From: Elusimicrobia bacterium GWA2_56_46
GTDB lineage: Bacteria > Elusimicrobiota > Elusimicrobia > Elusimicrobiales > UBA9959
Length of the DNA: 64,000 nt
NCBI GenBank assembly: GCA_001799575.1
Contig: MGTT01000016.1
Location: forward strand, 62,001-126,000
Direction of reading: 5' to 3'
The notes beneath the pieces were generated by a model. That model saw only the letters and a list, made by a program, of their open reading frames with translations, was not told the DNA's origin and searched no databases. Within the stretch, counting starts at the first letter, position 1. The number at the start of each line of letters is the position of its first letter. Of this stretch, positions 2,848 to 52,144 are shown piece by piece. Position numbers and translations under genes: made by a program.

Positions 2848-3564
2848 ATGAAAGAGCCCGCTGTGACGCTGGTGGTGCCGTTTTATAACGAGAAGGACTG
2901 CGCGGAAAGGGCGGTGGGCGAGCTTGCCTCGGCGCTGGACGCTGTGGAGCCCGGCTTCGAGCTTTTGCTGGTGGAGAACGCCTCTACGGACGGCACCAGG
3001 GAGATCCTGCGGCGGGCGGCGGCCGGGGATCCGCGTATCAGGGTGGTGGAACTGGACGTCAATATCGGGTACGGAGGAGCGGTTCTTAAGGGCCTTTCTC
3101 TCGGGCGCGGCGAGTGGGTGGGGTTTACATGCGGCGACGGCGAGATCTCGGCTTCGGACACCGCCTGGATGTGCTCTTTTACGCGGGTGTCGGGGCTGGA
3201 TTTTTGCAAGGCGAAGCGGCTGAACAGGCGGGACGGGGCCTGGCGCAAGTTCCTTTCCCTCGGCTACCACTTTCTGGTCGGTTCGTGTTTCAGCATCCAT
3301 GTCACCGATATAAACGGTTATCCGGTGCTTATGCGGAGAGCGGTTTATTCCAGGCTCCGGCTCTCCAGGACCGATTGGGTATTTAATGTGGAAATGCTTT
3401 TAAGACTGCGCCAGGAGGGGCTGCGGATGGCGGAAGTGGATGTGACGCACAGGCCGCGCCTGGGAGGGCGGTCGCATGTTAGTCTCCGGACCCCGGTGGA
3501 GTTCTTTTTCCAGCTAGTCTCTCTCTGGAGGCGGAACCGGCTGCGGCGGGAGACGGCTGTCTGA
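2848..3564 (+). CDS. Glycosyltransferase family 2, polyprenol-phosphate sugar synthase-like
   Basis: The 238-residue protein is a GT-A fold transferase. The N-terminal strand TLVVPFYNE, the ENASTDGT nucleotide-binding segment and NIGYGGAVLKG are typical of the DPM1/GtrB branch that glycosylates polyprenyl phosphate. The usual DxD is replaced by GDGE near residue 99, an acidic variant. No C-terminal membrane helices are obvious, so it resembles the soluble DPM1 type. It starts 9 bases after the dehydratase stop, which implies co-transcription. The donor and acceptor are unknown. Confidence 0.85.
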   Translation: MKEPAVTLVVPFYNEKDCAERAVGELASALDAVEPGFELLLVENASTDGTREILRRAAAGDPRIRVVELDVNIGYGGAVLKGLSLGRGEWVGFTCGDGEISASDTAWMCSFTRVSGLDFCKAKRLNRRDGAWRKFLSLGYHFLVGSCFSIHVTDINGYPVLMRRAVYSRLRLSRTDWVFNVEMLLRLRQEGLRMAEVDVTHRPRLGGRSHVSLRTPVEFFFQLVSLWRRNRLRRETAV

Positions 3565-3580
3565 AAGGCGGAGGGGAATT

Positions 3581-4447: not shown

Positions 4448-4451
4448 TACG

Positions 4452-4994
4452 ATGAACTTTATAAAGAAAACCACTTCCATTCCCGGCTGTTTTGAAATAA
4501 TCCCGACGATACGCAAGGATCCGCGGGGGATGTTCATAAAGATCTTTCACGCCCCGGAGTTTAAGGCGCTGGGGCTGGACTCGGATTTCCGGGAGGAATA
4601 TTACTCCGTTTCCAAAAAAGGCGTGCTGCGCGGGCTGCATTTTCAGAAGCCGCCGGCCGCGATCTCTAAACTGGTTTTTTGCGTGGAGGGAGACATCCTG
4701 GACGCGGTGGTGGATCTGCGCAAAAGGTCAAAGAGTTACGGTAAGGCGTTTACGGTGAAGCTCAGTACCCGGAAAGCGAATATGCTTTATATTCCCGAAG
4801 GCTGCGCGCATGGTTTCTACGCTTTGTCCGAAAAAGTGGTGATGCTTTATAAAACTTCCGGGGTGTATTCGCCGGAGAATGACGCTGGGGTACTCTGGAG
4901 TTCGGCCGGCATCAAGTGGCCCTGTAAAAGGCCGATAATTTCTGGGCGGGACTCCTCTTTCCCCGCTTTTAACGAATTCAAGACGCCTTTTTAA
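4452..4994 (+). CDS. dTDP-4-dehydrorhamnose 3,5-epimerase-like protein (RmlC family cupin)
   Basis: The 180-residue protein matches RmlC in length and motifs. The catalytic His lies in GVLRGLHFQ near residue 60, and the conserved EGCAHGFYAL segment carries the Tyr/Phe pocket near 120. RmlC enzymes invert C3 and C5 of a 4-keto-6-deoxyhexose nucleotide. I chose the ATG at 4452 rather than an upstream in-frame start, because it gives the normal RmlC N-terminus and lies 4 bases after the SDR stop. The pairing with the SDR suggests a two-step epimerase-reductase route to a 6-deoxysugar. Confidence 0.85.
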   Translation: MNFIKKTTSIPGCFEIIPTIRKDPRGMFIKIFHAPEFKALGLDSDFREEYYSVSKKGVLRGLHFQKPPAAISKLVFCVEGDILDAVVDLRKRSKSYGKAFTVKLSTRKANMLYIPEGCAHGFYALSEKVVMLYKTSGVYSPENDAGVLWSSAGIKWPCKRPIISGRDSSFPAFNEFKTPF

Positions 4995-5110
4995 TGCCGT
5001 TTCCTTGCCGCCTCTGTCCTCCAAAATATACCAAAGTGTAAAAATGTGTAGTGAAATATATATAGTGGTATAAAAAGGGGGATATAGTGTTCGGATATGT
5101 CGCCGGATGT
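4995..5110. other. AT-rich convergent intergenic spacer
   Basis: This spacer separates two convergent genes. It contains short AT-rich runs but no strong GC hairpin followed by a T-run. I see no gene in it. Confidence 0.4.
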
Positions 5111-8751: not shown

Positions 8752-8936
8752 TTCAGGCCGAAGATTCGCGGGCGCATAATTTGTTAATATTCAATTATAT
8801 TATCAAATTTTGAGGCGTCGCTTGCGGGCCCGCAGGGCCGCCTAAAATGCTAAAATATAAAAAAGGCCTGCAAGGAAAAATCTGAAAACAGACGCCATGG
8901 GCGGGGTTGTCCGGCAGGCGAAAACCGGGATTATTT
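8752..8936. promoter_or_regulatory. Divergent promoter region
   Basis: This AT-rich spacer lies between the leftward fusion gene and the rightward toxin-antitoxin-like pair. Candidate -10 elements occur on both strands around 8780-8815. No -35 is convincing, so exact promoters are not assigned. Confidence 0.35.
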
Positions 8937-9158
8937 ATGGACCAAACCGACAAGGATATTAAACAATGGGTTTCATGCTGGGCGGGGGCTGAACCTCAGC
9001 TTAAAAGTCTGCGTTACCGGGAAATAAGGAACACAAATACGGCCCGGGGAATCGGAATTCTTAACGATGCGTTCGAGTCGGCGATGCTGAACTCTTCTCC
9101 TCGTTTAACCTCGGGCCTGGTTAGCCAGCAAATGTATTTTAAACGGATGGCGAAATGA
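8937..9158 (+). CDS. Small hypothetical protein paired with a nucleotidyltransferase (candidate antitoxin)
   Basis: The 73-residue soluble protein has no recognised domain. It starts at the ATG at 8937; an in-frame upstream start would add ten residues. Its stop overlaps the start of the next gene by four bases (ATGA), so the two are translated together. Small proteins of this type often precede AbiEii-like or MNT-like nucleotidyltransferases in toxin-antitoxin modules. The antitoxin role rests on position only. Confidence 0.6.
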   Translation: MDQTDKDIKQWVSCWAGAEPQLKSLRYREIRNTNTARGIGILNDAFESAMLNSSPRLTSGLVSQQMYFKRMAK

Positions 9159-9718
9159 CAGGGCTGTTCCAGACAGCCAAAGAATTACAGGGCGTCTTCA
9201 CGGAGAAGGCGTGGAAGTTCTGTTTTATAGGCGGGGTGGCTCTTCAAAGGTGGGGGGAAATGCGGCTGACCCGGGATGTCGATGCCACCCTTTTTACCGG
9301 GTTCGGGGCGGAAGAACCGGTCGTTGACGAACTGTTGGCGCGATACAAACCGCGCGTGGAAAACGCGAAAGAATTCGCTCTTGCCAACAGAGTGCTTCTG
9401 ATCGAATCCAAAGACGGTATCGGGCTGGATGTGGCCCTTGGGGGGATTCCTTTTGAAGAAGAAATGACGCGCCGCGCCACCTGGTTTGAATTTATCCCCG
9501 GGCTGTCCCTCCTTACATGCTCAGCGGAAGATCTGATAGTGCTTAAGGCGTTCGCCGACCGCGAACAGGATTGGGCGGACATCAGAGGCGTGCTCATCAG
9601 GCAACAGGACGGAATTATGTGGGATTACGTGCGCAAGCAGCTTGAACCCTTATGCCTGGCGAAAGAAGCTCCTGAAATTATGCGGCATTTGGATAAAATA
9701 CGGCGCGATGTGGCGTGA
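9155..9718 (+). CDS. Nucleotidyltransferase, AbiEii/MNT-like (candidate toxin)
   Basis: The 187-residue protein has a DNA-polymerase-beta-type nucleotidyltransferase core. FCFIGGVALQRWGE near residue 23 supplies the GG motif, and LTRDVDATL near 38 supplies the DxD metal-binding pair. A later segment, GLDVAL near 87, fits the third acidic position. The C-terminal SAEDLIVLKAFADR resembles AbiEii and DUF6036 proteins, which modify tRNA or other targets with NTPs in type IV toxin systems. It overlaps the small upstream gene, which may neutralise it. The target is unknown. Confidence 0.78.
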   Translation: MTGLFQTAKELQGVFTEKAWKFCFIGGVALQRWGEMRLTRDVDATLFTGFGAEEPVVDELLARYKPRVENAKEFALANRVLLIESKDGIGLDVALGGIPFEEEMTRRATWFEFIPGLSLLTCSAEDLIVLKAFADREQDWADIRGVLIRQQDGIMWDYVRKQLEPLCLAKEAPEIMRHLDKIRRDVA

Positions 9719-9776
9719 TCGGAACTTAAGGCCGCCTCCCGCAAACAGCCGGCCACCGGACAAGAGGGATGCTAAG

Positions 9777-11192
9777 ATGATCTGTCTTATAAATCCGTTC
9801 ATAACGAGCGCTGAGCGGTATGGGAAAGAGATAGGCGATATCGGCGGGCATCAGATGCCTCTTGGTATCTATTACCTGGCCGCCGTGCTTTTGAGGGACG
9901 GGGAGCGGGTGGAAGTGATAGACGCTGAGGCCATGAAGCTGGTGCATGAGGAGCTGGTTAAAAAGCTGAAAGCCGCGCCGCCCGCTCTCATCGGCATTAC
10001 TTCCACCACCGTCGCTTTCCGCAACGCCAGGTCGCTCGCCGAATTGCTGCGCCGCGAACTGCCCGGCGTGCCCATAGTCATAGGCGGGCCTCATATGACG
10101 GCCATGCCCGAACCGACCATGCGCACGGGGGCGTTCGATTACGGGATAGTCCGGGAGGGGGAAGAGGCCTTTTCAAGGCTTGTCCGCCTGCTTATTCACG
10201 GCGAGGGCGTCCCGGCGGAGATCCCCAATCTGTGGCGGGCCGCCGCCGGCGTGGTGACGCCTCCGGCCAAAGTTGAGTATCTCGCCGACATAGACACCAT
10301 TCCTTTTCCCGCGCGGCAGCTTTGCGGGGATCTTTCCATGTACAGGCCGCCCGTGGGGGCTTTCAAGCGGGAGCCGGTGATGAGCCTTATCACCAGCCGG
10401 GGCTGCCCGTACCAGTGTATGTTCTGCGACAATAACACTTTCGGCAGGAAGACGCGCTTTTTTTCCGCCGAATACGTGGTGCGGGAGATAAAGGAGCTGG
10501 TGGGCCGCTACGGGGCGCGCGAGATCGCTTTCCTGGACGACACTTTCGTCTTGGACAAGAAACGGCTGCATAAGATCTTCGAACTGCTGGAAAAGGAAGA
10601 TATAAAATTCTCCTGGACATGCATGACCCGGGCCAATAATCTGGATTTTGAAACGCTAAAGTTCATGGCCGACAAGGGCTGCTGGCAGTTGCGCGTGGGC
10701 GTGGAAAGCGGCAATCAGAAAGTGCTGGATTTTATAAAAAAGGGGATAACGCTGGAACAGGTGCGCAATGCGGCCGCCTGGTGCAAAGAGCTGAAGATCC
10801 AGACCACCGGCTTTTTTATGATCGGGCATCACATAGACACGCCGGAGACCATACAGCAGACCATTGAATTTGCCCTGTCTCTGCCGTTTACGGACGTTAC
10901 CGCCACGATAAATACGCCCATGCCGGGCACGGAATCGTACGAGAAGGCCAGGCAGTACGGTTCCTACGACGAAAGCGACTGGACCTCTTTGAATTACTGG
11001 ACCCCGGTATTCGTTCCCAAAGGCCTGACGCGCGAATTTATGCTGGAGAAGCAGTCGGAATTCTACCGCAGATTTTATATGCGCCCCGGAGTGCTGCTGC
11101 GCCAGCTGGGAAAGATCCGCTCCCCGCGGGCCGCGGTCCTGGCCGCGAAGAACGCCGTCCTCGGTTTAAGCTTCATCAAAAGAAAGAAGTGA
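9777..11192 (+). CDS. B12-binding radical SAM protein
   Basis: The 471-residue protein begins with a cobalamin-binding domain, residues 1-150, typical of the BchE/HpnJ-like group. The radical SAM domain carries the iron-sulfur CxxxCxxC motif as CPYQCMFCD near residue 212. The SAM-binding GVESGNQKVLDFI lies near 310. Such enzymes perform methylations, ring closures or rearrangements, often on lipids or secondary metabolites. The start at 9777 gives the normal MICLINPF beginning; the longer frame upstream overlaps the nucleotidyltransferase gene. The substrate is unknown. The btuFCD system further down would supply the cofactor precursor. Confidence 0.88.
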   Translation: MICLINPFITSAERYGKEIGDIGGHQMPLGIYYLAAVLLRDGERVEVIDAEAMKLVHEELVKKLKAAPPALIGITSTTVAFRNARSLAELLRRELPGVPIVIGGPHMTAMPEPTMRTGAFDYGIVREGEEAFSRLVRLLIHGEGVPAEIPNLWRAAAGVVTPPAKVEYLADIDTIPFPARQLCGDLSMYRPPVGAFKREPVMSLITSRGCPYQCMFCDNNTFGRKTRFFSAEYVVREIKELVGRYGAREIAFLDDTFVLDKKRLHKIFELLEKEDIKFSWTCMTRANNLDFETLKFMADKGCWQLRVGVESGNQKVLDFIKKGITLEQVRNAAAWCKELKIQTTGFFMIGHHIDTPETIQQTIEFALSLPFTDVTATINTPMPGTESYEKARQYGSYDESDWTSLNYWTPVFVPKGLTREFMLEKQSEFYRRFYMRPGVLLRQLGKIRSPRAAVLAAKNAVLGLSFIKRKK

Positions 11193-11236
11193 TATGTATT
11201 GAAATTTAGTTATAACTAAATTCCAATACATATCAC
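11189..11236 (+). repeat. 48-bp near-perfect palindrome
   Basis: Two 24-base arms meet without a spacer and match at 23 of 24 positions. The sequence is AT-rich, unlike the surrounding genes. It begins at the stop codon of the radical SAM gene and lies about 95 bases upstream of the AbiE-type promoter. No T-run follows, so a classical terminator is not certain; an operator or recombination site is also possible. Confidence 0.85.
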
Positions 11237-11330
11237 CGGAGCCGGATTTTTCCGAAACTTTCAGTTTTAAAAAGGCCGCCGTAAATAAGGGGGCGATCTT
11301 TCTAAGTGCATGAAATTTTATAAAAAATAC

Positions 11331-11359
11331 TTGCATTTTAGGGGGAATTGGTGTATACT
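11331..11359 (+). promoter_or_regulatory. Sigma-70-type promoter for the AbiE-like operon
   Basis: TTGCAT at 11331-11336 and TATACT at 11354-11359 are separated by 17 bases. A GGGAG ribosome site then precedes the ATG at 11376. This is one of the clearest two-part promoters in the window. Confidence 0.7.
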
Positions 11360-11375
11360 GTAATAGGGAGCTATT

Positions 11376-11948
11376 ATGAGGAACGCGGAAAAACTCAGAA
11401 ATTTTATGCAGCCGGGCCGGATCTACAGGCGCCAGGATCTGGAGGCGCACTCAACTGCCGTGGATCGGGATTTGAATACCTTGGTTGAAAGCGGAGCAGT
11501 GAGGAAACTGTCCGGGGGGATCTATTATCGCCCCCGCAAAAACGCGTTTGGCTTTACGCCGCCCGGGGAGCGGGAGCTTCTGCGCGCTTTCCTTAAAACC
11601 GATGATTTTCTTCTTACTTCATATAACTATTTTAATCAATTCGGACTGGGGCTTACGCAGGTCTACAGCGCCGGGTTGGTTTATAACCATAAAAGAGCGG
11701 GGGAATATTCACTGGGGGGGAAAAGATTCGAGTTCCGCCTGGTGCCCGCGTACCCGGATAAACTAAGCCGGGAATTTCTTCTGGTTGATCTGTTGAACAA
11801 TCTTAGGCGTCTGCCTGATAATACCGCCGGAGTTCTTGAAAATTTAAAAACACGCTTAAACGAATTTGACCGCGCCGGGCTGACGGCTTGCCTGGAACGA
11901 TATGGAAACCCCGGCGCTAAAAAAGCTTTCCGCGAGATCTATGCTTGA
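11376..11948 (+). CDS. AbiEi/DUF6088-like antitoxin and transcription regulator
   Basis: The 190-residue protein has an N-terminal winged helix: FMQPGRIYRRQDL, then VDRDLNTLVESGAVRKLSGGIYYRPR. This is the usual beginning of AbiEi-type antitoxins, which repress their own promoter and neutralise an AbiEii nucleotidyltransferase. The middle section ELLRAFLKTDDFLLTSYNYF also fits. The gene overlaps the AbiEii-like gene by eight bases (ATGCTTGA). The near-perfect palindrome upstream could be connected with autoregulation. Confidence 0.85.
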   Translation: MRNAEKLRNFMQPGRIYRRQDLEAHSTAVDRDLNTLVESGAVRKLSGGIYYRPRKNAFGFTPPGERELLRAFLKTDDFLLTSYNYFNQFGLGLTQVYSAGLVYNHKRAGEYSLGGKRFEFRLVPAYPDKLSREFLLVDLLNNLRRLPDNTAGVLENLKTRLNEFDRAGLTACLERYGNPGAKKAFREIYA

Positions 11949-12888
11949 TTTTTTCCACGCCAGGCCCGACGCCAAAGAACTTTTTGAAACGCTGGCGGCC
12001 CAGAAAGGCCTGCCGCCTGCCGTGGTCGAAAAAGATTACTGGATAATGCACTGCTTATGGGGGCTGAAGCGATCGGGTTTGAGTTTTGAGATGAAGGGCG
12101 GAACCTCGCTGTCCAAAGGCTGGCGCGTTATCGAACGGTTTTCGGAGGATATTGATATCCGCTTTGAGCCTCCGCCCGAATTGAATGTGAAGGGAGACAA
12201 ACCGGCGCAGATCAAGGCCAGGTTCGAGTTTTATGACGCGCTTGCCGCGAAGATAAAGATTCCGGGGATTACGGCGGCCAGGAATCGGGTCTACGATGCC
12301 GACAAAGCGCAAAACGGCGGTATAAGCCTGAAGTACGATTCTTTCTTTGCGCCTGATCCCGGGCTCGGCTTAAATCCGGATGTTCTGCTGGAAGCGGGCT
12401 TTGCCCGGACCGCGCCTAACGAACCCAGGGATTTCAGCAGCTGGGCGCTGGACAAGGCGCTGTCCGCCGGACTTGAGGTCGCGGATAACCGCGCCGCTGG
12501 AATTAAATGTTTTAATCCCGAATATACGTTCGTAGACAAACTTCAGACGATCTGCAGACGTTTCCGGCAATGGCGGGATCGCAATGACCAGCAGAAAGAC
12601 AGGCCAAGGCAGTTCAGCCGCCATTATTATGACCTTTATATGCTTCTGGCTGTTGACCGGGTTAAGAAGTTTATAGGCACTCCTGATTATGAAAAGTACA
12701 AGAAGGAAAAGTTGAAAGGGGCGGACGCAAGAGAGTTCGCCTCGCGCGCCGCTTTTACATTGCCGGATGCCGGGGCATACGGCTTGTTTGAAAAAGAATT
12801 TAAAGCGCTGAACAGCCTGTTATTGTCCCCCGGCCCGTCGTTCAAAGAGGTTATTGAAAGAATCCGGGCATACTCCCCCGGATTTTAA
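11941..12888 (+). CDS. AbiEii-family nucleotidyltransferase toxin
   Basis: The 315-residue protein shows the core motifs of the AbiEii family (PF08843). EMKGGTSLSKGW near residue 50 is the GG/S motif, and RFSEDIDIRF near 66 contains the metal-binding DxD. VVEKDYWIMHCLWGL near 23 and YTFVDKLQTI near 197 are also typical. AbiEii toxins transfer nucleotides to tRNA acceptor ends in type IV systems and give phage resistance. I chose the ATG at 11941, which overlaps the antitoxin stop; an upstream start at 11902 would overlap by 47 bases. Confidence 0.87.
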   Translation: MLDFFHARPDAKELFETLAAQKGLPPAVVEKDYWIMHCLWGLKRSGLSFEMKGGTSLSKGWRVIERFSEDIDIRFEPPPELNVKGDKPAQIKARFEFYDALAAKIKIPGITAARNRVYDADKAQNGGISLKYDSFFAPDPGLGLNPDVLLEAGFARTAPNEPRDFSSWALDKALSAGLEVADNRAAGIKCFNPEYTFVDKLQTICRRFRQWRDRNDQQKDRPRQFSRHYYDLYMLLAVDRVKKFIGTPDYEKYKKEKLKGADAREFASRAAFTLPDAGAYGLFEKEFKALNSLLLSPGPSFKEVIERIRAYSPGF

Positions 12889-12899
12889 TTTGTTATATT
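12889..12899 (+). promoter_or_regulatory. Probable extended -10 promoter element
   Basis: TTTGTTATATT lies directly after the AbiEii-like stop codon. The -10 hexamer ends 13 bases before the ATG at 12913, so the leader would be about 7 bases or absent. Confidence 0.5.
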
Positions 12900-12912
12900 A
12901 TTCTCAAACCAT

Positions 12913-13800
12913 ATGCCGGAGCGAATCTTAATACTGGGCGGGAGCGGGATGCTGGGGCACAAGCTTTGGCAGTATCTGCCCGCCAGATTTCAGAATACTT
13001 TTGTTTCTATCCGCAAATCCAGGGAGTATTATCATAAGTGCGGGCTTTTTACCGGCCCTAACGTGATGGACGGGCTGGATCTGCGCGATCTCGCGCGGCT
13101 GGAAAAAACATTGGACGGCCTGAAGCCTTCCGTGGTGGTAAATTGCGCCGGCGTGACCCTCCGGAGCAAGGAGCTCCTGGACAAGGCCTCCTGCATAGCC
13201 GTCAACGCCCTGCTGCCTCATAAGCTCGCGGACTGGTGCGCCAGGAACGATTCCCGCCTCATCCACTTCAGCACGGTCTGCGTTTTCGACGGCAGGACCG
13301 GCGGCTATTCCGAGGACGACCTGCCCGACGCCCGCGATCTTTACGGCATGACCAAGGCCCTCGGGGACGTTTCCGCTCCGCGCGCGCTGACGCTGCGGTC
13401 CTCTTTTATCGGGCGGGAACTCTTCGCCGGGGCCGAGCTCCTGGAATGGTTCCTGGCCCAGCGCGGCAAAAAGATAAAAGGATTCAGGAAAGCGATTTTT
13501 ACCGGCCTCACCACCAACCGGCTGGCGGAACTGGCGGGGGAACTGATCGCCAAATTCCCGGCCCTGAACGGCCTGTATCATGTTTCCAGCGAAGCGGTCA
13601 CCAAGTTCGAACTGCTTAATTTGCTCAAAGAAGCTTACAACCTGGACGTTGAAATAGAGCCGGACGATAAATTCGAATGCAGGCGCGATCTGGACGGCGC
13701 CAGGTTCGCGGAAGCCGCGGGGTTCGAGTGCCCGCCCTGGAAAGAGATGGCGCGGGCCATGGCAGCCGACCCGACGCCCTACGCGGAATGGAGAAATTGA
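12913..13800 (+). CDS. Sugar-nucleotide reductase of UDP-L-FucNAc synthesis (WbjC/FnlB-like)
   Basis: The 295-residue SDR protein begins with ILGGSGMLGHKLW, the RmlD-type nucleotide-binding loop. HFSTVCVFDG and the YGMTK active-site YxxxK near residue 144 follow. In UDP-N-acetyl-L-fucosamine synthesis, WbjC/FnlB reduces the 4-keto intermediate made by WbjB. The next two genes encode WbjB-like and WbjD-like enzymes, so the assignment rests on both family and order. It is one base from the next gene, in one operon. Confidence 0.82.
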   Translation: MPERILILGGSGMLGHKLWQYLPARFQNTFVSIRKSREYYHKCGLFTGPNVMDGLDLRDLARLEKTLDGLKPSVVVNCAGVTLRSKELLDKASCIAVNALLPHKLADWCARNDSRLIHFSTVCVFDGRTGGYSEDDLPDARDLYGMTKALGDVSAPRALTLRSSFIGRELFAGAELLEWFLAQRGKKIKGFRKAIFTGLTTNRLAELAGELIAKFPALNGLYHVSSEAVTKFELLNLLKEAYNLDVEIEPDDKFECRRDLDGARFAEAAGFECPPWKEMARAMAADPTPYAEWRN

Positions 13801-15990: not shown

Positions 15991-16205
15991 CTTGCCATAA
16001 GCTTTAAGCCATAGGCCTGTCATCCCGGCAATCTGGCCGTTTGAGGGGCATAGCCCCTGATACGGCACCTACGCAGGTATTGTTAGCCGGGATCCACAAA
16101 AAAAGATTTATGGATTCCTGCTAACGGCATGCAGGAATGACAGATTGTGCGCCTACGGAAAACCCGGGTTTCTGCGTATGGCATATGGCGTACAGCTTAT
16201 GGCAA
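15991..16205. repeat. Composite repeat region between fnlC-like and wbuB-like genes
   Basis: The spacer holds several nested repeats. Degenerate copies of an ATGGCTT-like heptamer occur at 15991-16015 and, inverted, at 16174-16205. A dRS3-like module on the minus strand (16019-16096) is split in its loop by a second hairpin repeat at 16037-16065. Another dRS3-like module, with stem ATTCCTGC/GCAGGAAT, lies at 16111-16141. No gene is evident. Confidence 0.75.
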
Positions 16206-16212
16206 TAATTCT

Positions 16213-17418
16213 ATGCCCCTTAAAATCCTGATCGTCAGCGAGCGCTTTTATCCCGAAGAGTTCATCATCAACGACCTCGCCTCCCAGTGGGCGGAGCGCG
16301 GCTTTGAAGTGGACGTCCTGACCCAGATCCCCAGCTACCCTTTCGGAAAGGTCTTCCAGGGCTATTCCAACCGCCTTTTCTCGGAAGAGTGCTGGAAAAA
16401 GATCCGCATACTGCGCTTTTTCACCGTTACAGGCTACCGGGAATCCCTGTTTTTTAAACTTCTGAATTATCTGAGTTTCGCGATCACGGGCAGCCTTGCG
16501 GCCCTGTGGATAGGCCGGAAATACGACCGGATCTTCGTATACAATACGGGCCCGCTGACCGCCGCCCTGCCCGCCGTATTTTTGCATAAGTTTTACAAGA
16601 AACACGTTACTATCTGGACCCAGGATATCTGGCCGGACATGGTTTACGCCTACGGGTTCAGGAAGACAAAAACGCTTTCGTTTTTCCTGGACAGGCTGGT
16701 GGCGTTCATTTACAGGAACTGCGACACGATCTTTATTTCGTGCGCCGGTTTCCGCAAAAGTATAGAGCCGTACGCTCCCGGCAGAACCATGCATCACTTC
16801 CCGAACTGGCCAACGGTCGCTCCCTCGGCCGGCGCCGCCGGAGGAGCTCTTAAACTTCCGGACGGTTTCAACTTTACTTTCGCCGGGAACATAGGTAAAT
16901 TCCAGAATCTGGACAATATAATACGGGGATTCGCGCTGGCGGGCGCGTCAGGTTCCGGTCTGCGGTTGAATATCGTCGGGGACGGGTCGGAACTGGAACG
17001 GCTCAAGGAACTGGTGGAGGCGGAACATATCGGAGGAGTTGTGTTCTGGGGGCGGAAAAGCCAGTCCGAGATGCCCGCCTTTTTTAACGCCAGCGACGTT
17101 ATGATAGTCTCGCTTAAAGACGCCCCGGTTTTTGAGCTTACCGTTCCGGCCAAATTCCAGGCCTATCTGGCTTTTTCAAAACCCATTTTCTGCGTCATGA
17201 ACGGCGAAGTCCGCCGCATAGTTGAGGAATATAAGACCGGCCTCTGCGCCGCCCCCGGCGACCTGAACGGGATCCGGGATGGCTTCCTAAAATTCCATGG
17301 ATTAAGGGATGGGGGGTTGAAGAGCTTCGCCGAAAACTCAAAAATCCTCCTTGAAACCGTCTACGACAGGGACAAGATCACGGCCGCCATGACGGACCTG
17401 GTCGTGGCGGGAAAATAG
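16213..17418 (+). CDS. Glycosyltransferase family 4, WbuB-like (L-fucosamine transferase)
   Basis: The 401-residue GT-B protein starts with ILIVSERFYPEEFIINDLA and contains IWTQDIWPD near residue 134, both typical of the WbuB/WcaI group. The C-terminal half has FAGNIGKFQN near 219 and an acidic catalytic region FELTVPAKFQAYLA near 312. WbuB transfers L-FucNAc in Escherichia coli O26. The three upstream genes make UDP-L-FucNAc, so that donor is likely. The ATG at 16213 is preferred because an earlier in-frame start lies inside repeat DNA. Confidence 0.85.
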   Translation: MPLKILIVSERFYPEEFIINDLASQWAERGFEVDVLTQIPSYPFGKVFQGYSNRLFSEECWKKIRILRFFTVTGYRESLFFKLLNYLSFAITGSLAALWIGRKYDRIFVYNTGPLTAALPAVFLHKFYKKHVTIWTQDIWPDMVYAYGFRKTKTLSFFLDRLVAFIYRNCDTIFISCAGFRKSIEPYAPGRTMHHFPNWPTVAPSAGAAGGALKLPDGFNFTFAGNIGKFQNLDNIIRGFALAGASGSGLRLNIVGDGSELERLKELVEAEHIGGVVFWGRKSQSEMPAFFNASDVMIVSLKDAPVFELTVPAKFQAYLAFSKPIFCVMNGEVRRIVEEYKTGLCAAPGDLNGIRDGFLKFHGLRDGGLKSFAENSKILLETVYDRDKITAAMTDLVVAGK

Positions 17419-25744: not shown

Positions 25745-26959
25745 ATGAACTTCCCGGCCGGCCTGGTAAAGCGGATAGTTGAAAAGACCGGCACCCCGGT
25801 CTATATTTATTCCGCGCAAAAGATCCTGGATAATCTGGGGGCGTATAAAAAACAGTTCGCCTCTCTCCAACCTCTGTTCTGCTATGCCATGAAGGCCAAT
25901 TCCAACGGCGCCGTGGCCCGGCTGCTGGCCCGGAACGGCGCTGGCGCGGACGTGGTCAGCGGGGGGGAATTATACCGGGCGCTGCGGGCCGGTTTCGATC
26001 CGCGGAAAATAATATTTTCAGGAGTGGGGAAGACGGCCGAAGAGCTCGCTTACGCTCTGCGTTCCGGCATTTTATTCATAAACGTGGAGTCGTTCGAGGA
26101 ACTGGAGGCGCTTGAGCGCGCCGCGGCCGGGCTGAAGCTCAAGGCCCCGGTTTCGGTCAGGATAAATCCGGATGTGGATCCTCATACCCATAAATTCATT
26201 ACCACGGGAAAGATCGGGAGCAAGTTCGGCGTGGCGTTCAAAGAGGCGGGACGGCTTTATTCTTTCGCCAAGGCCTCGCGCCACCTGGAGCCCGTAGGCC
26301 TCCATTTCCACCTCGGTTCGCAGATAGATTCTCCTGAACCGTACGCGAAAGCGCTCGCGGCCGCCGCTAACTTTATCCGCCGGCTTGAGAAAGACGGCGT
26401 AAAGCTGAAGTATCTGGATATCGGCGGCGGCTGGGGGGTAAAGGAAGGATCCGAGATGCTGCCGCCCGGCATCCTGGCGCGGACGGTAGGGCCCGCGGTC
26501 AAAGAACTGGGCCTTGCGCTCATTCTGGAACCGGGCCGCAGCCTGGTCGCGGCCGCCGGCGCGCTGGCCGTGCGGACACTTTACAGGAAGAAAAGCGGGC
26601 CGAAAAACTATGTTATAACCGATGGCGCCATGAATGATCTTATACGGCCGGCCTTTTACGGCGCCAGGCATCCGGTAATACCGCTGGTCAGGAGGCGCGG
26701 CAAGTCCGTCCGTTTCGATATAGCCGGGCCGGTGTGCGAAAGCGGGGATTTTCTGGCCCAGGATGTCGGCCTGCCCGTTCCTTTGCGGGGCGATATTCTG
26801 CTGGTCCTGTCGGCGGGGGCCTATGGATTTTCTATGAGTTCGCAGTACAATTCCCGGCCGAGGGCGGCCGAGGTTCTTATAACCGGCAAGAATTCCTGGC
26901 GCGTAGTAAGGAAGCGCGAAACCTACAAAGACCTGGTCGCCGGGGAAATAAACGTCTAA
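25745..26959 (+). CDS. lysA: Diaminopimelate decarboxylase
   Basis: The 404-residue PLP enzyme makes L-lysine from meso-diaminopimelate. The Schiff-base Lys lies in FCYAMKANSNGAV near residue 47. HLGSQID near 199, the GGGWGV loop near 231, EPGRSLVAAAG near 260 and CESGDFLAQD near 333 are the expected alanine-racemase-fold and decarboxylase motifs. The start at 25745 is used because the longer open frame would run through the tRNA. The gene follows the tRNA by 12 bases. Confidence 0.95.
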   Translation: MNFPAGLVKRIVEKTGTPVYIYSAQKILDNLGAYKKQFASLQPLFCYAMKANSNGAVARLLARNGAGADVVSGGELYRALRAGFDPRKIIFSGVGKTAEELAYALRSGILFINVESFEELEALERAAAGLKLKAPVSVRINPDVDPHTHKFITTGKIGSKFGVAFKEAGRLYSFAKASRHLEPVGLHFHLGSQIDSPEPYAKALAAAANFIRRLEKDGVKLKYLDIGGGWGVKEGSEMLPPGILARTVGPAVKELGLALILEPGRSLVAAAGALAVRTLYRKKSGPKNYVITDGAMNDLIRPAFYGARHPVIPLVRRRGKSVRFDIAGPVCESGDFLAQDVGLPVPLRGDILLVLSAGAYGFSMSSQYNSRPRAAEVLITGKNSWRVVRKRETYKDLVAGEINV

Positions 26960-27032
26960 ATTCCCCGATCCTCCGCTAACAAGCCTGCGTCATTGATGAA
27001 AAGATTTCACCCATTGGGTGAAAGTGGAAAAT

Positions 27033-27570
27033 GACGGCGGGCTGCTGGTTCGGGGGCCTGTCAGCCATGGGGCCCATCGGGCCGAAAGGGGCCCGGCGAC
27101 TGACCTATGGGCGTGCCGCAACAGGGCCTATGGCCAACAGGCGGCCTTCGCGCCGGTTCCCCTTTCGGTCCGATCCAACCCATGGCTGCCACCCCTCCAG
27201 TTTATACCCCGCCGCCATCCTCCTAAATACAGCCTTAAAAACGAACCTATATTTGCCCACGAGGCATCCACACTGCAAGATGGTTGCCAATGAAGAGATG
27301 ATAATTTTAAGGGGGGCCGTGGAAGTCTGGAAAAGCACCGGTGATTTTGTAAAACTTACTGATTCCTATACTGGGCGGGTAATTCAAGTATTAATTTGGG
27401 CGGGGTCAATATATTGTATTTTCAAATTGGAATGCCGAGCGACCATCAAGTGTGTAAATTTTACTAAGGGGTGACGATGGACAGCCTTTTTGTCCCGCAG
27501 GCCGCCGAGGGAAGCATAAAAGGCTGTCCATCGGCAGGCCCCCGGTTTTACTATCCTGCGGTTCGTTAAC
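27033..27570 (+). mobile_element. Second inverted-end cassette, short cargo
   Basis: This locus has the same left-type and right-type ends as the HEPN cassette at 50132-51656. At the left, a 29-bp imperfect stem (27063-27091 with 27159-27187) is followed inward by GCCACCCCT (27188-27196). At the right, AGGGGTGAC (27467-27475) is followed by a 15-bp stem (27476-27490 with 27518-27532) and GGCAGGCCCCCGG. Right-end flanks match those of the other locus closely. The roughly 240 bases between the ends are AT-rich and have no convincing gene. The copy has no outer 57-bp repeat, so it may be decayed. Confidence 0.6.
27280..27474 (+). CDS. Short open frame inside the second cassette (doubtful)
   Basis: An ATG at 27280 opens a 64-residue frame with a hydrophobic stretch VIQVLIWAGSIYCIF. 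No ribosome site or known domain is visible. It ends in the conserved right-end sequence. It may be a remnant of an earlier cargo gene, or chance. Confidence 0.2.
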   Translation: MVANEEMIILRGAVEVWKSTGDFVKLTDSYTGRVIQVLIWAGSIYCIFKLECRATIKCVNFTKG

Positions 27571-27614
27571 CCAAAGCTGCTAGGATTACCGCTTATCGGA
27601 GGATTTGGATAAAT

Positions 27615-28733
27615 TTATTCGGCGGACTGGAGCAGTTGGCGGAGGGACGGGCGGTTCATTGGGGGGATGGCAACTGAGAGGGGGAGCACCGGGCCGGGTA
27701 GGGGGGCGGCGGGGGCGAAGATCAGGCTTTTCAGTTCCGGCATCAGGGCGTGGAGTTCGTCCCCGGGGCAATCGGTATTGCCGATGTCCCGGTGGGCGTA
27801 AAAACTGCTTATGTCGATATTGTAGGCGGTTTTGAGATATTTTCCCATTTCGACAAAAGTGTAGAGAGTTTCTTTCGTGGGCTTCTGGCTGACCGGGGGA
27901 TGATAGTTGCCCATGACGGAGATGCCGATATTTCCGTCGTTCCGGCCTCTCACGTGCGCGCCCACCACATTCACCGGCCGGCCCTCAAAAATATCTCCCT
28001 GGGGATCTATGACAAAATGGTAGCCGAGGTCTATCCAGCCGCGGCCGTTCTGGTGATAGTCCTGCAGGAACTGCATTTCCCGGACGGCTTCGTCGTAGTT
28101 CTTAGGATAATGTCCAGCGGTGTTGTGGAGCGTGAATATTTTCGGGGCGTGAGGGGTATAAGGCTCGCTTGGGGGCGCGGCCTGCCAGGCGCCGCGCCTG
28201 ACGACGGTAAATGGCATTTCCGCGGGCAGATAGAATCCGGGGTCGGGCTTGTAGGCCGCGGGCGCCGGGGCCGAAATAATTTCCTTTACTAAGGTCTCGC
28301 GGAAAGCCTCCGCGCCGTAGATGGTGAACGTGTGGCGCAGGGAAACGCCGGCGTTGAGAAGAGCGAGTTTTACCGGCTCCCCGGTCCGGCGTCCCATTTT
28401 GTATTTGGCCCAGAATCTGCCGCCCGGAAACCGGTGAATGGCGGTTTTGTCATAGGTTTTGAAAGCCGCGCCGTTCTTTATTCTGACCTGGAGCTGCACG
28501 CCGGGATCCGGCATCTCGCCCTGGATCAGGATCGTGTCGTAATCCTGAGAGGGGATTTCGCTGAACGGCGTTTCATACAGTACGGCGCCGGGCGCGGTTT
28601 CGGGGGAGACGGAAATTTCCAGGGGATACGCGGCGCTCCCGAAGATGAGCGAGTTGTCCCCGCTCCCGGCGGCCGCGCCGGCCGCCGCCAGGAAAATAAT
28701 CAAAGCCGCGAACTTGAACGATCTCATAAGCAT
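27615..28733 (-). CDS. Secreted N-acetylmuramoyl-L-alanine amidase, PGRP/amidase-2 type
   Basis: The 372-residue protein has a signal peptide ending near residue 23 in an Ala-rich segment. The catalytic domain covers about residues 180-350. Zinc ligands are visible as the His in FTLHNTAGHYP, the His in YAHRDIGNTDCPGDEL, and the Cys in that segment. YHFVIDPQGDIFEGRP and GAHVRGRNDGNIGIS are family signatures. It should cut the bond between MurNAc and L-Ala in peptidoglycan. The first 150 residues are unassigned and may bind cell wall. A second ATG, two codons downstream, is an alternative start. Confidence 0.9.
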   Translation of the reverse strand: MLMRSFKFAALIIFLAAAGAAAGSGDNSLIFGSAAYPLEISVSPETAPGAVLYETPFSEIPSQDYDTILIQGEMPDPGVQLQVRIKNGAAFKTYDKTAIHRFPGGRFWAKYKMGRRTGEPVKLALLNAGVSLRHTFTIYGAEAFRETLVKEIISAPAPAAYKPDPGFYLPAEMPFTVVRRGAWQAAPPSEPYTPHAPKIFTLHNTAGHYPKNYDEAVREMQFLQDYHQNGRGWIDLGYHFVIDPQGDIFEGRPVNVVGAHVRGRNDGNIGISVMGNYHPPVSQKPTKETLYTFVEMGKYLKTAYNIDISSFYAHRDIGNTDCPGDELHALMPELKSLIFAPAAPLPGPVLPLSVAIPPMNRPSLRQLLQSAE

Positions 28734-48023: not shown

Positions 48024-48800
48024 ATGACTAACGCATCAAAAACCGCAACCAAACCTAAAGTGGCTTTCTTTGACTTCGCGTGCTGCGAGGGCTGCCAGCT
48101 CCAGGTGGCGAATCTCGGGGAATCGCTGCTGGATATCCTGGGCGCCATAGACGTGGTGGAATTCCGCGAGGTCATGAGCGAGAAGTGGGACAAGGATTAT
48201 GACGTGGCGATCATCGAGGGCTCCATAACGGATCACCACGCCGAGGAGCGCATCAAAAAGATACGCGCGCGCTCCAGGGTTCTCATCGCCTACGGCGCCT
48301 GCGCCTGCATCGGCGGCGTAAACGGCATGAAGAATTCTTTCGAACTGGACGAGATCCGCCGCTGCGTCTACGGCAAGGATTTTAAACTGTTCGACAGCGT
48401 CAAAACCAGGCCCGTCCACCAGGTGGTGAAAGTGGATTACTTCGTGAACGGCTGTCCGATATATCCGCCGGAACTGGTGGAAGTGCTTAAGTGCGCCCTG
48501 CGCGGCCTCCCTTATACCGTGCCCGACAATCCGGTCTGCGTGGAATGCAAGCTGAACGAGAACGTCTGCATGTACGACCGCGGCGTTTCGTGCCTCGGCC
48601 CCTGGACCAAAGCGGGCTGCAATTCCTGGTGCGTCAATAACGGCAATATCTGCTACGGCTGCCGCGGCGAGGTGAAGAATCCGGCGAAGAACGCCGCCTC
48701 GGACGTCATCGGCAAATACAAGCTCAGCGCCGGCCTGATAAAGAACAAATTCGAGATGTACAACAAGTGCAAGGAAGGTGACATCAATGGCGGTAAATAA
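48024..48800 (+). CDS. Group 3b hydrogenase delta (small) subunit (HydD-like)
   Basis: The 258-residue protein carries the proximal and distal clusters next to the NiFe site. FDFACCEGCQLQ near residue 15 and AYGACACIGG near 91 bind the proximal cluster, with NGCPIYPPE near 142. Further Cys residues at about 170-215 (CVECKLNENVC, CLGPWTKAGC, CYGC) provide extra clusters. It has no twin-Arg signal, so the enzyme is cytoplasmic. It overlaps the alpha subunit gene by 14 bases. Confidence 0.93.
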   Translation: MTNASKTATKPKVAFFDFACCEGCQLQVANLGESLLDILGAIDVVEFREVMSEKWDKDYDVAIIEGSITDHHAEERIKKIRARSRVLIAYGACACIGGVNGMKNSFELDEIRRCVYGKDFKLFDSVKTRPVHQVVKVDYFVNGCPIYPPELVEVLKCALRGLPYTVPDNPVCVECKLNENVCMYDRGVSCLGPWTKAGCNSWCVNNGNICYGCRGEVKNPAKNAASDVIGKYKLSAGLIKNKFEMYNKCKEGDINGGK

Positions 48801-50115
48801 GGATCTTGATATAAAAGTGGAGTACGTGACCCGCGTCGAAGGCCACGGCAACATCGTGGTTAACGTCAAGAACGGCAAAATAGAGAAGTCGGAGTTCCAC
48901 GTGGTGGAGTCGCCCCGCCTTTTCGAAGGGATGCTCCGCGGCCGGTCCGTTTTCGAGGCGCAGCATATCACCTCCCGCATCTGCGGCATCTGCTCCTGCG
49001 GGCATTCCCTGGCCTCCATAGAGGCGGCCGAGGACGCGCTGGGCGTCACGCCGAGCGCGCAGACCATAAAACTGAGGAAGCTGCTGCTGGATTACGAGTT
49101 CCTGGACAGCCATATTTTGCACGTCTACCTGCTGGCCGCTCCCGATATCCTGGGCGTGCCCTCCTTTGTGCCGCTTATCAAGACGCATAACGCAGTGGTC
49201 AGGCGCGCGCTGCGCATGAAAAAGGCGTGCAACGACGTCTGCGACATCCTGGTCGGGCGCCATGTGCATCCCATCAGCGCCATCGCGGGCGGGTTCACCA
49301 AGCTGCCCAGGCCCAAAGATCTCGACGCGCAGATAAAGTTGCTGGAAGATCTGGGCGAAGATATGGCCGAGACGCTTAAGCTCGCGGCGACCCTCAAGTT
49401 CCCCGATTTTCACCGGGAGACCGAGTACGTGGCGCTGGTGTCCGACGACGGAGACTACCCGCTGCTGACGGGCGAGATCGGCTCCACGGACGGAAAGCGC
49501 TTCAAGAAGAAGGATTACAGGAAAGCCACCAACGAGTTCGTGGATCCGCGCTCTTCTGCCAAGTTCACCAAACTCTCCCGCGAGTCCTATTTTGTGGGCG
49601 CGCTGGCGCGGTTCAACCTCAACTACGACAAGCTTCACCCCGAGGCGAAGAAGGTCGCCGTTGCCCTGGGTTTTAAGCCCGTCTGCCACAATCCGTATCT
49701 GAACACCGTGGCGCAGGTCATTGAGATAGTGCACTGTTACCACCACGCTTTGGAAATTCTCAGGGATCTCAAAAAGAACGGGGTGGATTACAGCCAGGAA
49801 CTGGTCGTGGGCGTAAACGAAAAGGGCGCTATCCCCGTCCGGGCCGGCGACGGCGTGGGCGCCGTGGAGGTGCCGCGGGGGATCCTGTTCCATAACTACG
49901 AGACCGACGCCAAGGGGCTGATCAAGCAGGCCAACTGCATAATCCCGACCAACCAGAACATCAATAACATCGAGCACGACTTCGCGAAGCTGCTGCCGGA
50001 GATCATCACCAGGTCCAAGGAAGAGATCACTCTGGCGCTGGAGATGCTGGTGCGGGCCTACGACCCCTGCATCTCGTGCTCCACGCATTACCTGAATGTC
50101 ACTTTCGTTGATTGA
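48787..50115 (+). CDS. Group 3b [NiFe] hydrogenase alpha (large) subunit (HydA-like)
   Basis: The 442-residue subunit holds the NiFe centre. RICGICSCGHSLAS near residue 60 is the N-terminal Cys pair and DPCISCSTH near the C-terminus is the second. Eight residues follow the final His, a tail that the maturation protease should remove. I chose the ATG at 48787 with GGAAGG upstream. The enzyme probably couples NAD(P)H and H2, reversibly, with possible sulfur reduction. The gap to the protease gene is filled almost wholly by the mobile cassette. Confidence 0.94.
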   Translation: MAVNKDLDIKVEYVTRVEGHGNIVVNVKNGKIEKSEFHVVESPRLFEGMLRGRSVFEAQHITSRICGICSCGHSLASIEAAEDALGVTPSAQTIKLRKLLLDYEFLDSHILHVYLLAAPDILGVPSFVPLIKTHNAVVRRALRMKKACNDVCDILVGRHVHPISAIAGGFTKLPRPKDLDAQIKLLEDLGEDMAETLKLAATLKFPDFHRETEYVALVSDDGDYPLLTGEIGSTDGKRFKKKDYRKATNEFVDPRSSAKFTKLSRESYFVGALARFNLNYDKLHPEAKKVAVALGFKPVCHNPYLNTVAQVIEIVHCYHHALEILRDLKKNGVDYSQELVVGVNEKGAIPVRAGDGVGAVEVPRGILFHNYETDAKGLIKQANCIIPTNQNINNIEHDFAKLLPEIITRSKEEITLALEMLVRAYDPCISCSTHYLNVTFVD

Positions 50116-50291
50116 CGGATAATATAACTTCGGGGCAAAGGGCCAGGCTTCAGGGCAAAGGTGCCAGCCTTCTTTTTCAGCAGAAAAAGTAGGCTGGCTC
50201 TCTTTGCCAGGCGCGGGGTTGGATGGCTTTGGGCTAAGAGCCGCACGATAGCCCAGTCGGGTCGGCGGCGGCTGCAAGTTCGGGGTCCTGT

Positions 50292-50357
50292 CGACGGGCA
50301 GTCTTTTCGCTTCCCTCGGAAGCCTGCGGGACGAAAAGGCTGCCCATCGCCACCCCT
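50292..50357 (-). repeat. Left-type end hairpin of the HEPN cassette
   Basis: Arms at 50292-50309 and 50332-50349 match at 16 of 18 positions, with two wobble-type differences. The loop on the minus strand reads CCCGCAGG, then CCGAGGGAA. GCCACCCCT (50349-50357) is the inner boundary motif, AGGGGTGGC on the minus strand. An ACAGGACCCCGAAC block lies outward. Confidence 0.8.
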
Positions 50358-50434
50358 CCAACTATACCCGCCGCCGCCCCTCCGCCAAAACTTACGCGTA
50401 TTATGTTCCCCAGGCTTATGTGCGAAAAGGCAAA

Positions 50435-51382
50435 ATGCTTTTTCGTATTGTGAAAAATATCGAACTTTTACCATTAAGGATTATGGATAGGAAAGAGAGT
50501 TATCTGTCGGTAATTGGGGCGCACTATGTGCCAGATATCGTTTTGGACTTTTTACCCAGAATATTTGAAGCGTATAAAATTCGTGATTACAAAAGTAAGA
50601 ACTTTCAAGTAAGTGCTTGTGAAAATACCCTTTCAACGGCAGGATTACTATTATCTGTAGCAAGTATTGAATCGTACGCTAACCGCATTTTCCGGTTTGA
50701 AGAGAAGCGGGGGCCAGTTCCGGAGAAGATTTCGGAAATATTCTGGAGCAAAAATAATAATTTCCCAAAAGAGGATTTTGAAAGATTATTGTGCGAAGTA
50801 TACATACTCAGAGATGTTATTGTCCATAACCATATTTACGACATTTCTACTGCGGTTGACAGGGAATCTTGGGAAATTAAGCATCTGGATGAGACTTTGG
50901 TGATTGGAAAGGGCGAGAAAGATAAAAAATTCAAGGAGTGTGTTGATTGCGCTGCTAAAAAAACCAAATTGTTGAAACTGCATGTGCAACCTCTTAAAAT
51001 AGGTTTTGAGGATTTGTTTACAGTGCTTTTTGTCTTTGACACTTTCGTGCGCTTATCGCAATCGATGCTCAGCGATTCCCATGTCCCGTTTCGGCTTTAC
51101 TGTAAAATTGGGAAAACAACCGAGTCCAGCCTTTCACGTCTTCTGGCCTCTTACTATCGGCAAATCACGAACGAAGAGTATCTTAAAGCATTAGAATCTC
51201 TTTTAACGGAATTGCGGGGAAAATATGCGCACTTTCTCGTGTCTCCATACGATGATGCCTTTATAAATAATATTTGTCCGCGTCCTAATTGTGGAAAGAT
51301 TGGATTTCATACAATTCTTCGGGGGAACACTTGTGCAGCTTGTGGGTTATCAATTGGGAGGCCACTTGCTCAGAATGCTTAG
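50435..51382 (+). CDS. HEPN-motif protein with C-terminal zinc ribbon (cassette cargo)
   Basis: The 315-residue protein shows a HEPN-type helical domain in the first half. SVASIESYANRIF near residue 73 fits the first HEPN helix. R126-DVIV-H131 gives the Rx4H catalytic motif of HEPN ribonucleases. A four-Cys zinc ribbon at the C-terminus uses C281, C286, C300 and C303. The gene is much richer in A+T than its neighbours and sits between inverted repeats, signs of transfer. A role as an RNase toxin or defence protein is inferred. The start could also be ATG at 50483 or GTG at 50420. Confidence 0.72.
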   Translation: MLFRIVKNIELLPLRIMDRKESYLSVIGAHYVPDIVLDFLPRIFEAYKIRDYKSKNFQVSACENTLSTAGLLLSVASIESYANRIFRFEEKRGPVPEKISEIFWSKNNNFPKEDFERLLCEVYILRDVIVHNHIYDISTAVDRESWEIKHLDETLVIGKGEKDKKFKECVDCAAKKTKLLKLHVQPLKIGFEDLFTVLFVFDTFVRLSQSMLSDSHVPFRLYCKIGKTTESSLSRLLASYYRQITNEEYLKALESLLTELRGKYAHFLVSPYDDAFINNICPRPNCGKIGFHTILRGNTCAACGLSIGRPLAQNA

Positions 51383-51442
51383 ATGAAAATGTGGAGGGTC
51401 GGGTAATTAGGCCGATGGATCATCAAGTGTGTAAGTTTTACA

Positions 51443-51522
51443 AGGGGTGACGGGGCAAGGCTTTTTCGACCCCGCAGGTTGCCGAGGGAACGCGAAAAAG
51501 CCTTGCCCCGGCAGGCCCCCGG
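51443..51522 (+). repeat. Right-type end hairpin of the HEPN cassette
   Basis: AGGGGTGAC (51443-51451) is followed by a perfect 17-bp stem, 51452-51468 with 51493-51509. The loop has CCCGCAGG and CCGAGGGAA. GGCAGGCCCCCGG (51510-51522) lies outward, then TTTTACTATCCTGCGG. The inner flank CATCAAGTGTGTAA is also found at the right end of the second cassette. Confidence 0.85.
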
Positions 51523-51664
51523 TTTTACTATCCTGCGGTGCTAAAGCCCAAAGTTGACCAGCCCCGCTTTTTGGCAAAGAGAGCCAGCCTACTTTTTCTG
51601 CTGAAAAAGAAGGCTGGCACCTTTGCCCCGGAAAAATAAGCCTGGCACCTTTGCCCTGATAAAT

Positions 51665-52144
51665 ATGAGTGATTATTTGACGGACGAGATTAAGGCGGCT
51701 ATCGCGCCTAAGGGGAGGACGCTGCTGATCACCATAGGCAACTCTCTGAGGGGCGACGACGGGGTTGGCCCCTTTGTGGGGGAACGTGTGAAATTCAAAT
51801 CTCCGGAATGCCGGGTCATCAACGCCTGCACCACACCCGAGAATATCGCCCAGACCGCCATAGATTTTAAACCCGGAAAAATAATGCTCCTGGACGCCGC
51901 CCATTTCGGCGGCCGGCCGGGCGAACTTAAAATCATCCCGCTTGAGCTTATAAACCGGCAGACGGTCATCTCCACCCATAGCTTCCCGCTCAGCGTCACT
52001 TTTTCCATAGTAAAGGAAGACACCGGCGCGGAGCTGGTGGTGATCGGCGTGGAACCCGCCTCCATGGAATACGCCGAAGGCCTTACGCCCGAGGTAAAAG
52101 AATCGGCGCTGAGTTTGATAGAGCATTTTAATAATATAAAATGA
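51665..52144 (+). CDS. Hydrogenase maturation protease
   Basis: The 159-residue protein belongs to the HyaD/HybD/HycI family (M52). TIGNSLRGDDGVGPFVGE near residue 22 has the nickel-recognition Asp, DAAHFGG near 79 the second Asp and STHSFPL near 105 the His. It should cut the eight-residue tail of the large subunit after nickel insertion. I chose the ATG at 51665, eight bases beyond the cassette. Its own ribosome site is poor, so the cassette may have changed its expression. Confidence 0.92.
   Translation: MSDYLTDEIKAAIAPKGRTLLITIGNSLRGDDGVGPFVGERVKFKSPECRVINACTTPENIAQTAIDFKPGKIMLLDAAHFGGRPGELKIIPLELINRQTVISTHSFPLSVTFSIVKEDTGAELVVIGVEPASMEYAEGLTPEVKESALSLIEHFNNIK

Follow-up and report, generated by a model that had tools for sequence, protein, structure and literature searches.

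Gene content and repeats of the hydrogenase-protease gap

The window (the whole stretch of 64,000 nucleotides that was analysed) belongs to a genome of 2.66 Mb in 30 contigs (hereafter G000) and contains a NiFe-hydrogenase large subunit gene (hydA) followed by a hydrogenase maturation protease gene, with a gap of 1549 bp between them. The features of this region and a related repeat elsewhere in the window are:

48778..50115, plus strand: NiFe-hydrogenase large subunit gene, left neighbour, outside the cassette (Pfam NiFeSe_Hases, E 2.9e-33)
50118..50125, plus strand: putative left target-duplication copy GATAATAT, an imperfect match to GATAAATAT at 51658-51666 (by eye; one-base indel, weak)
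50125..50235, plus strand: left terminal inverted repeat, comprising TAAC..CGGGGC, a partial hairpin copy, the 57-bp hairpin and the start of the T segment
50153..50209, plus strand: left copy of the 57-bp hairpin repeat (rep57), self-folding at -36.2 kcal/mol with RNA parameters
50215..50262, plus strand: conserved T segment, left (87% over consensus positions 11-48)
50259..50380, plus strand: second structured hairpin, left, B type
50483..51382, plus strand: cargo gene, 299 aa, GC 0.40, orphan
51396..51522, minus strand: second structured hairpin, right, A type, with a conserved inner TTACxCAC..GATG segment
51518..51565, minus strand: conserved T segment, right (79% over 48 nt)
51572..51628, minus strand: right copy of the 57-bp hairpin repeat
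51545..51659, minus strand: right terminal inverted repeat, including another partial hairpin copy (51638-51656)
51658..51666, plus strand: putative right target-duplication copy GATAAATAT, overlapping the protease start (by eye; weak)
51665..52144, plus strand: hydrogenase maturation protease gene, right neighbour (Pfam HycI, E 4.1e-14)
26964..27607, minus strand: full-length gene-less MITE of the E1 subfamily, with T segment and hairpins as in the cassette ends; its own ends read CC..ATCCTCCG[A/C]TAA

A preliminary description of this DNA had reported a perfect 57-bp inverted repeat, further diverged inverted repeats inside it, one AT-rich gene and a gap filled save for 24 bases, all of which was borne out. 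The two 57-nt arms are 100% complementary and 1362 nt apart. Inside them lie a diverged pair at 50213-50235 and 51545-51567 (78%) and a second at 50311-50330 and 51471-51490 (90%), outside them a pair at 50132-50150 and 51638-51656 (79%). The bases beyond the cassette are 16 on the left (50116-50131) and 8 on the right (51657-51664, before the protease ATG).

The cargo gene has AAGGA ahead of its ATG. It had been labelled a HEPN protein and possible RNase, and one motif fits the label: residues 110-115 read R110-D-V-I-V-H115, and a passage of PMC3710099 gives the HEPN motif as Rx4-6H with a polar residue (N, D or H) following R, a pattern with which the hexapeptide agrees. Such a motif (R[NDH]xxxH) arises in 5.3% of shuffles of the cargo protein, and profiles lend the label no support, since comparison with Pfam, NCBIfam, PADLOC and PDB gave no meaningful match; a single NCBIfam profile (E 0.11) and a single Pfam profile (E 0.14) were hit, both far below cut-off. 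A structure model built without an alignment was unusable (pLDDT 32). The C-terminal CPRPNC...CAAC looks zinc-ribbon-like by eye; neither this nor the HEPN reading is backed by any profile, structure or homologue.

Searches for homologues returned none in 100 relatives at E 1e-3, in phages and plasmids at E 0.01 or in PDB at E 1, and none of 22 pattern stretches from the genome contig collection and three from viral contigs was confirmed. Five weak plasmid records came up for a 188-aa piece when E values up to 10 were allowed. Across 340 genomes of the phylum seven others reach E 0.05, the best at 0.0014 with 26% identity and 17.6 bits; given this score and internal stops in three of the seven, these matches were taken as chance. 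The cargo gene is known from the window species alone. Judged by its motif and by the genes found near other copies of the ends (HigB-like, Fic, ORF6N, OLD-like and ADP-ribosyltransferase-like), it probably belongs to the accessory genes of conflict or toxin type; calling it a toxin or RNase is a guess from that company.

Structure and distribution of the repeat family

The 57-mer is found by BLAST at 30 places in its own genome, a figure that includes short fragments and palindromes read twice, and so is not a chance sequence; the right end of the cassette occurs at no fewer than 47 places (40 of 95 candidates scored). The 57-bp sequence is itself a self-complementary hairpin. The 22 copies aligned from fetched loci fall into two variants in which pairing is kept, CCAGCCT/AGGCTGG and CCAGGC/GCCTGG. 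Five of the 231 copy pairs are 100% identical and the window pair is one of these, so that the perfect identity of the arms reflects mostly homogeneity of the family, and we rejected it as a sign of a special, recent origin of the window cassette.

Twelve of the 22 57-mers sit just outside the conserved 48-nt T segment, copies of which were located by BLAST, and within a longer, diverged terminal structure. From outside to inside this structure consists of TAACGCCGGGC, the hairpin, the T segment and, directly inward of T, a second, large covarying hairpin of A or B type. The A-type hairpin has 30 pairs, with 96.5% of cells paired over 25 ends from three genomes, these ends being picked from 46 stretches after exclusion of reverse readings, one interrupted copy and B-type hairpins. 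Changes on both sides of a pair number 89, as against 26.8 +/- 4.3 in shuffles and at most 9 in slid controls; further pair types show no excess (23 versus 23.7 in shuffles). Folding of these ends is under constraint. Mismatches in helices 1 and 2 (alignment A1, which includes window positions 51396-51570) are 13 A-C against one G-T, which hints that it is the opposite strand that folds; helix 3 disagrees, with 42 G-T and two A-C.

Covarying hairpins between genes could be structured RNA or regulatory elements, such as terminators or mRNA-stabilising hairpins, selected where they stand, the gene being incidental. The mismatch bias of helices 1 and 2 hints that one strand folds and would suit this account, but helix 3 is biased the opposite way, no Rfam family matches at gathering score in either place scanned, and in 12 relatives other than two congeneric species (G001 and G002) the hydA junction showed no such repeat. 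We consider this explanation highly improbable, and a known structured RNA was dropped as a candidate on the Rfam result.

In the genome contig collection the repeat pattern matched one record, MGVA01000014.1 from Elusimicrobia bacterium RIFOXYA12_FULL_51_18, 1994 bp of which are letter-identical in contig C14 of G002. As G002 is listed in the same genus as G000, the window can be placed in Elusimicrobiota. The repeat searches in relatives scored part of the candidates (e.g. 7 or 12 per genome), and their negatives apply to the loci read and not to whole genomes.

Gene-less members of the family (E1) share the T segment and hairpins. Nine places match the E1 end over at least 70 of 71 nt at 96-99%. 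Full copies are about 640 bp long (the window copy and L142), and deletion derivatives about 270 bp (L013 at 16015-16289, and L141). The window copy is flanked by a perfect 6-bp TAAATT (26957-26962 and 27610-27615). Among seven copies with both flanks read, three carry 6-bp duplications in a register chosen from the data (TAAATT/TAAATT, ATCTCC/ATCTCC and TGTTGC/TGTTAC; two perfect, one 5/6) and four have none. A passage of PMC4133298 defines MITEs as 30-300 bp long. E1 resembles them in being multicopy and gene-less, with terminal inverted repeats, no transposase ORF and target duplications in three of seven copies, and differs in that its full copies are longer and that its sister branch, E2, carries genes. 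E1 is a good MITE family and sister to the cassette ends.

Cassettes with the same ends and their sites in relatives

E2 ends begin with TAACGCCGGGC and occur with or without the 57-bp hairpin around a variety of genes. At L014 an M23 peptidase gene lies between uvrC and an alkyltransferase-like gene, within rep57(+)-T-hairpin and hairpin-T-rep57(-), the order seen in the window. L015, between pilin-like and reductase-like genes, encodes a phosphonate-binding protein, a histidine kinase and a 195-aa ORF; rep57 is present on both sides, T and the large hairpin were detected only at the right. L048 (locus positions 3934-13610, on contig C10) is a 9.6-kb AT-rich island with inverted T-hairpin ends lacking rep57 and containing Fic, an S41 peptidase, a sigma factor, LRV proteins and, by eye, a nucleotidyltransferase-like ORF. 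L157, in G002, holds a nucleoside phosphorylase within T-hairpin ends, again without rep57, the right end being weaker. Two further E2 cassettes, L017 and L019, are interrupted by contig ends. A Gp49/HigB-like gene at L011 is accompanied by 57-bp hairpins and by no T segment. The names uvrC, rsmE, rpsJ, pilin, reductase and alkyltransferase were assigned by eye and not by profile. One locus, L013 (locus positions 2539-10311, on contig C27), looks array-like, with three A-type ends in one orientation, 1.3 and 2.7 kb apart, among genes for clostripain, an ADP-ribosyltransferase-like protein and a hydrolase.

In the five cassettes at the window, L014, L015, L048 and L157, the 15 ORFs have a mean GC of 0.469, as against 0.576 for 42 ORFs outside (p 4e-8, the ORFs not being independent; ORFs of 120 aa or more from a simple longest-ORF caller). 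Pfam scans of the window gene and of the main ORFs of L014, L015, L048 and L157/L132 found no transposase, in agreement with the preliminary description. By eye no clear target duplication flanks L011, L014, L015, L048 or L127; the window has an imperfect one of 8/9 bp.

The junction between hydA and the protease gene was sought in 41 genomes including G000, of which 17 matched (G016 by repeats only), and was read in 14 relatives; G004 matched and is outside these 14. The earlier statement that the two genes normally lie close together agrees with seven of the 14, where they abut or overlap: the protease frame begins 20-29 bases before the hydrogenase stop in G003, G006, G017 and G021, and protease-like sequence follows immediately after that stop in G014, G022 and G024. 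An insert of roughly 280 bp lies here in G013, and G012, G015, G020 and G023 have short spacers of 63-150 bases where measured. The repeat consensus matched at none of the 12 junctions outside G001 and G002, the fetched stretch of G013 giving one weak 27-nt match outside its junction. The DNA in G000 is an insertion relative to other genera, which lack it. Of the empty sites and target duplications for which the preliminary description proposed a comparison, the former exist as closed junctions and the latter is at best imperfect.

At the same junction G001 and G002 have inserts without a gene, of 628 and 350 bp; T-type ends border the G001 insert on one side and the G002 insert on both, so an element was probably present there before these species split. 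The inserts in the three species may also be independent insertions, and the gene-less inserts permit a further reading, that the window gene may have come separately into a resident repeat cluster.

Other sites also differ in content between sister species. The uvrC site was compared in ten genomes, the counts leaving out G003, G013 and G017. The genes abut in G006 (coordinates only), G014, G022 and G024 and are about 90 bp apart in G021; the insert is 1.94 kb in G000, 2.12 kb with an unrelated 509-aa ORF in G001, and 0.83 kb of AT-rich DNA without a long ORF in G002. An internal remnant is common to G001 and G002. Both ends of the G002 insert and the right end of the G001 insert start at, or no more than some ten bases from, the point used in G000; the left of the G001 insert has no such end. 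At the pilin site the 3.84-kb L015 cassette is absent from G002, where the two genes abut. At the rsmE site T-type ends occur in G000 and G001, enclosing a 194-aa ORF in the former and an ORF6N gene (E 2.8e-27) with a helicase (weak Mrr match) in the latter. An ORF6N-like gene bordered by hairpins lies at the rpsJ site of G001 and G002, where G000 has a lone hairpin and G003 nothing; no T segment was detected in any copy. The ORF6N-like genes at different slots have 53-56% protein identity and are therefore paralogues, which is no proof of a recent jump. At the L011 site G001 carries other AT-rich genes, around which no ends could be detected, and the site is shorter in G024 and G003. In G002, L152 (locus positions 1110-6700, on contig C68) is an island of defence type next to a ribosomal gene: the rpsJ-like gene is followed by the ORF6N-like gene among hairpins and then by an OLD-like nuclease and more AT-rich ORFs.

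That two gene-less repeats of MITE or REPIN type settled independently beside an accessory gene in a permissive intergenic hotspot, never moving as a unit, would account for the many single, gene-less copies and for the gene-less inserts at the hydA junction of the sister species. It would account as well for inverted pairs around apparent housekeeping genes; the pair at C18:5560-13224 encloses primase- and sigma-factor-like ORFs (by eye), for which reason we do not take such large pairs as transposons and inverted pairing alone means little. Against it, the foreign DNA in the window, L014 and L015 begins and stops at the repeat ends, no more than some 25 bp from the genes on either side, L015 is cleanly missing from G002, and the cargo is AT-rich compared with its neighbours. 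On balance we regard independent repeats as rather unlikely. The preliminary description had itself counted single, cargo-free intergenic copies as speaking against a mobile element, and in part this is what is seen, many copies being single and gene-less.

Mobility of the element and comparison with known systems

The best explanation, which we favour with moderate confidence, is that the window element is a non-autonomous gene cassette derived from a lineage-specific MITE family and resembling a mobile insertion cassette, moved in trans by a putative enzyme and occupying slots in which cargo turns over. Confidence was lowered slightly by the G001 insert, which has T-type ends on one side only, and by the rpsJ copies, none of which has them. 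The earlier reading as a non-autonomous mobile element is upheld in part, by ends that recur around other genes, by the closed junctions of relatives and by the missing transposase; it needs amending in that the 57-bp repeat belongs to a set of dispersed hairpins and sits inside the true ends, and that two sister species have gene-less inserts. The ends are inverted copies of TAACGCCGGGC, an optional 57-bp hairpin, a T segment and a large covarying hairpin, with the accessory gene in the middle. A transposase acting in trans would recognise these ends and move the element, a REP/RAYT-like process would have added the 57-bp hairpin to them, and resident elements would acquire new cargo either through recombination of their similar ends or through renewed insertion. 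At the hydA junction a family element would have entered before G000, G001 and G002 diverged from their common ancestor, the window gene being either present in that ancestor and lost twice or gained in the G000 lineage.

The general type is already known, from MITE-borne passenger genes and mobile insertion cassettes; the less usual traits are the large covarying hairpin ends and a slot content that differs among sister species. Mobile insertion cassettes carry passenger genes, and MIC231 of Bacillus cereus is reportedly one of them. Their trans-activation is stated in a passage of PMC4133298, and MIC231 of B. cereus appears in a title cited by PMC6542083. Like them, the window element has no transposase, has inverted terminal repeats around a passenger gene and would move in trans. 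It differs in that no parent insertion sequence is known, in that its ends measure 100-250 bp, contain covarying hairpins and have taken up a REP-like hairpin, in its many cargo types and in the differing content of shared slots. Among the titles and abstract openings listed for literature on mobile insertion cassettes, RAYT, pdif modules and Elusimicrobiota repeats and mobile elements, none concerns the repeat family.

Dif modules of Acinetobacter and integron gene cassettes are likewise units of accessory genes that do not encode their own recombinase. The structured ends could be sites of recombination where genes are exchanged between fixed slots by a recombinase of the host or by one since lost, and constant slot positions with varying cargo, a single accessory gene in several cassettes and the strong covariation of the large hairpin (89 versus 26.8 in shuffles) fit such a scheme. 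We nevertheless think it very unlikely. Boxes of attC type (RYYYAAC..GTTRRRY, R''/R') occur in 0/25 ends on either strand; the window ends match the 28-bp XerC/XerD site dif in its E. coli form at 15 and 14 of 28 positions, when shuffles reach 18 and 17; and the gene-less relatives are transposon-like, with terminal inverted repeats and target duplications in 3/7. An identity of the ends with attC or with dif of the E. coli form was dropped. Distinctly unlikely, too, is a variant with fixed "cassette slots", in which single ancestral insertions kept their hairpin-rich ends and exchanged cargo from species to species, via recombination of the ends or a putative single-strand recombinase reading the hairpins, in an integron-like manner with no attC and no known integrase.

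G000 has two Y1-type transposase genes, and no autonomous insertion sequence with matching ends was noticed among the fetched loci. One of the two, at L064 (locus positions 1165-1908, on contig C6; IS200-like, Y1_Tnp E 2.2e-11), is flanked in RAYT-like fashion by three copies of AAAAGGTGCCAGGCACCTTTT, which corresponds to the palindrome arms of the 57-mer and is also scattered elsewhere. These 21-nt palindromes match about 20/57 nt of the 57-mer, which itself does not lie beside L064. Since the arms are shared, a RAYT-like origin is plausible for the 57-bp hairpin; we do not claim it for the whole cassette. REPINs as described in a passage of PMC3116915 carry no genes. The 57-bp repeat resembles them in being multicopy and in pairing as an inverted REP doublet into a hairpin, whose variants are compensatory; it differs in the small number of copies aligned (22), the partial match at L064 and the genes carried.

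If this explanation holds, the family would be a genus-level system of passive gene delivery, by which accessory genes as diverse as peptidases, toxin-like proteins, sensors and restriction-type helicases are slipped into operons, between genes that in relatives lie directly next to each other. Several slots comparable across species would give a view of cargo replacement, and the element would be a concrete case for studying how cassettes that lack a transposase are moved and why large covarying hairpins persist in their ends.

At the left junction of the window, positions 50096-50122 in the 3' end of the hydrogenase gene contain an ATG where the overlapping protease frame begins in G003; here it now opens a dead frame of 8 codons. 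A gene overlap of 20-30 bp, as in G003, G006, G017 and G021, may have been duplicated at insertion and left this old start as a remnant; a simpler account of the junction is offered by the imperfect duplication GATAA(A)TAT.
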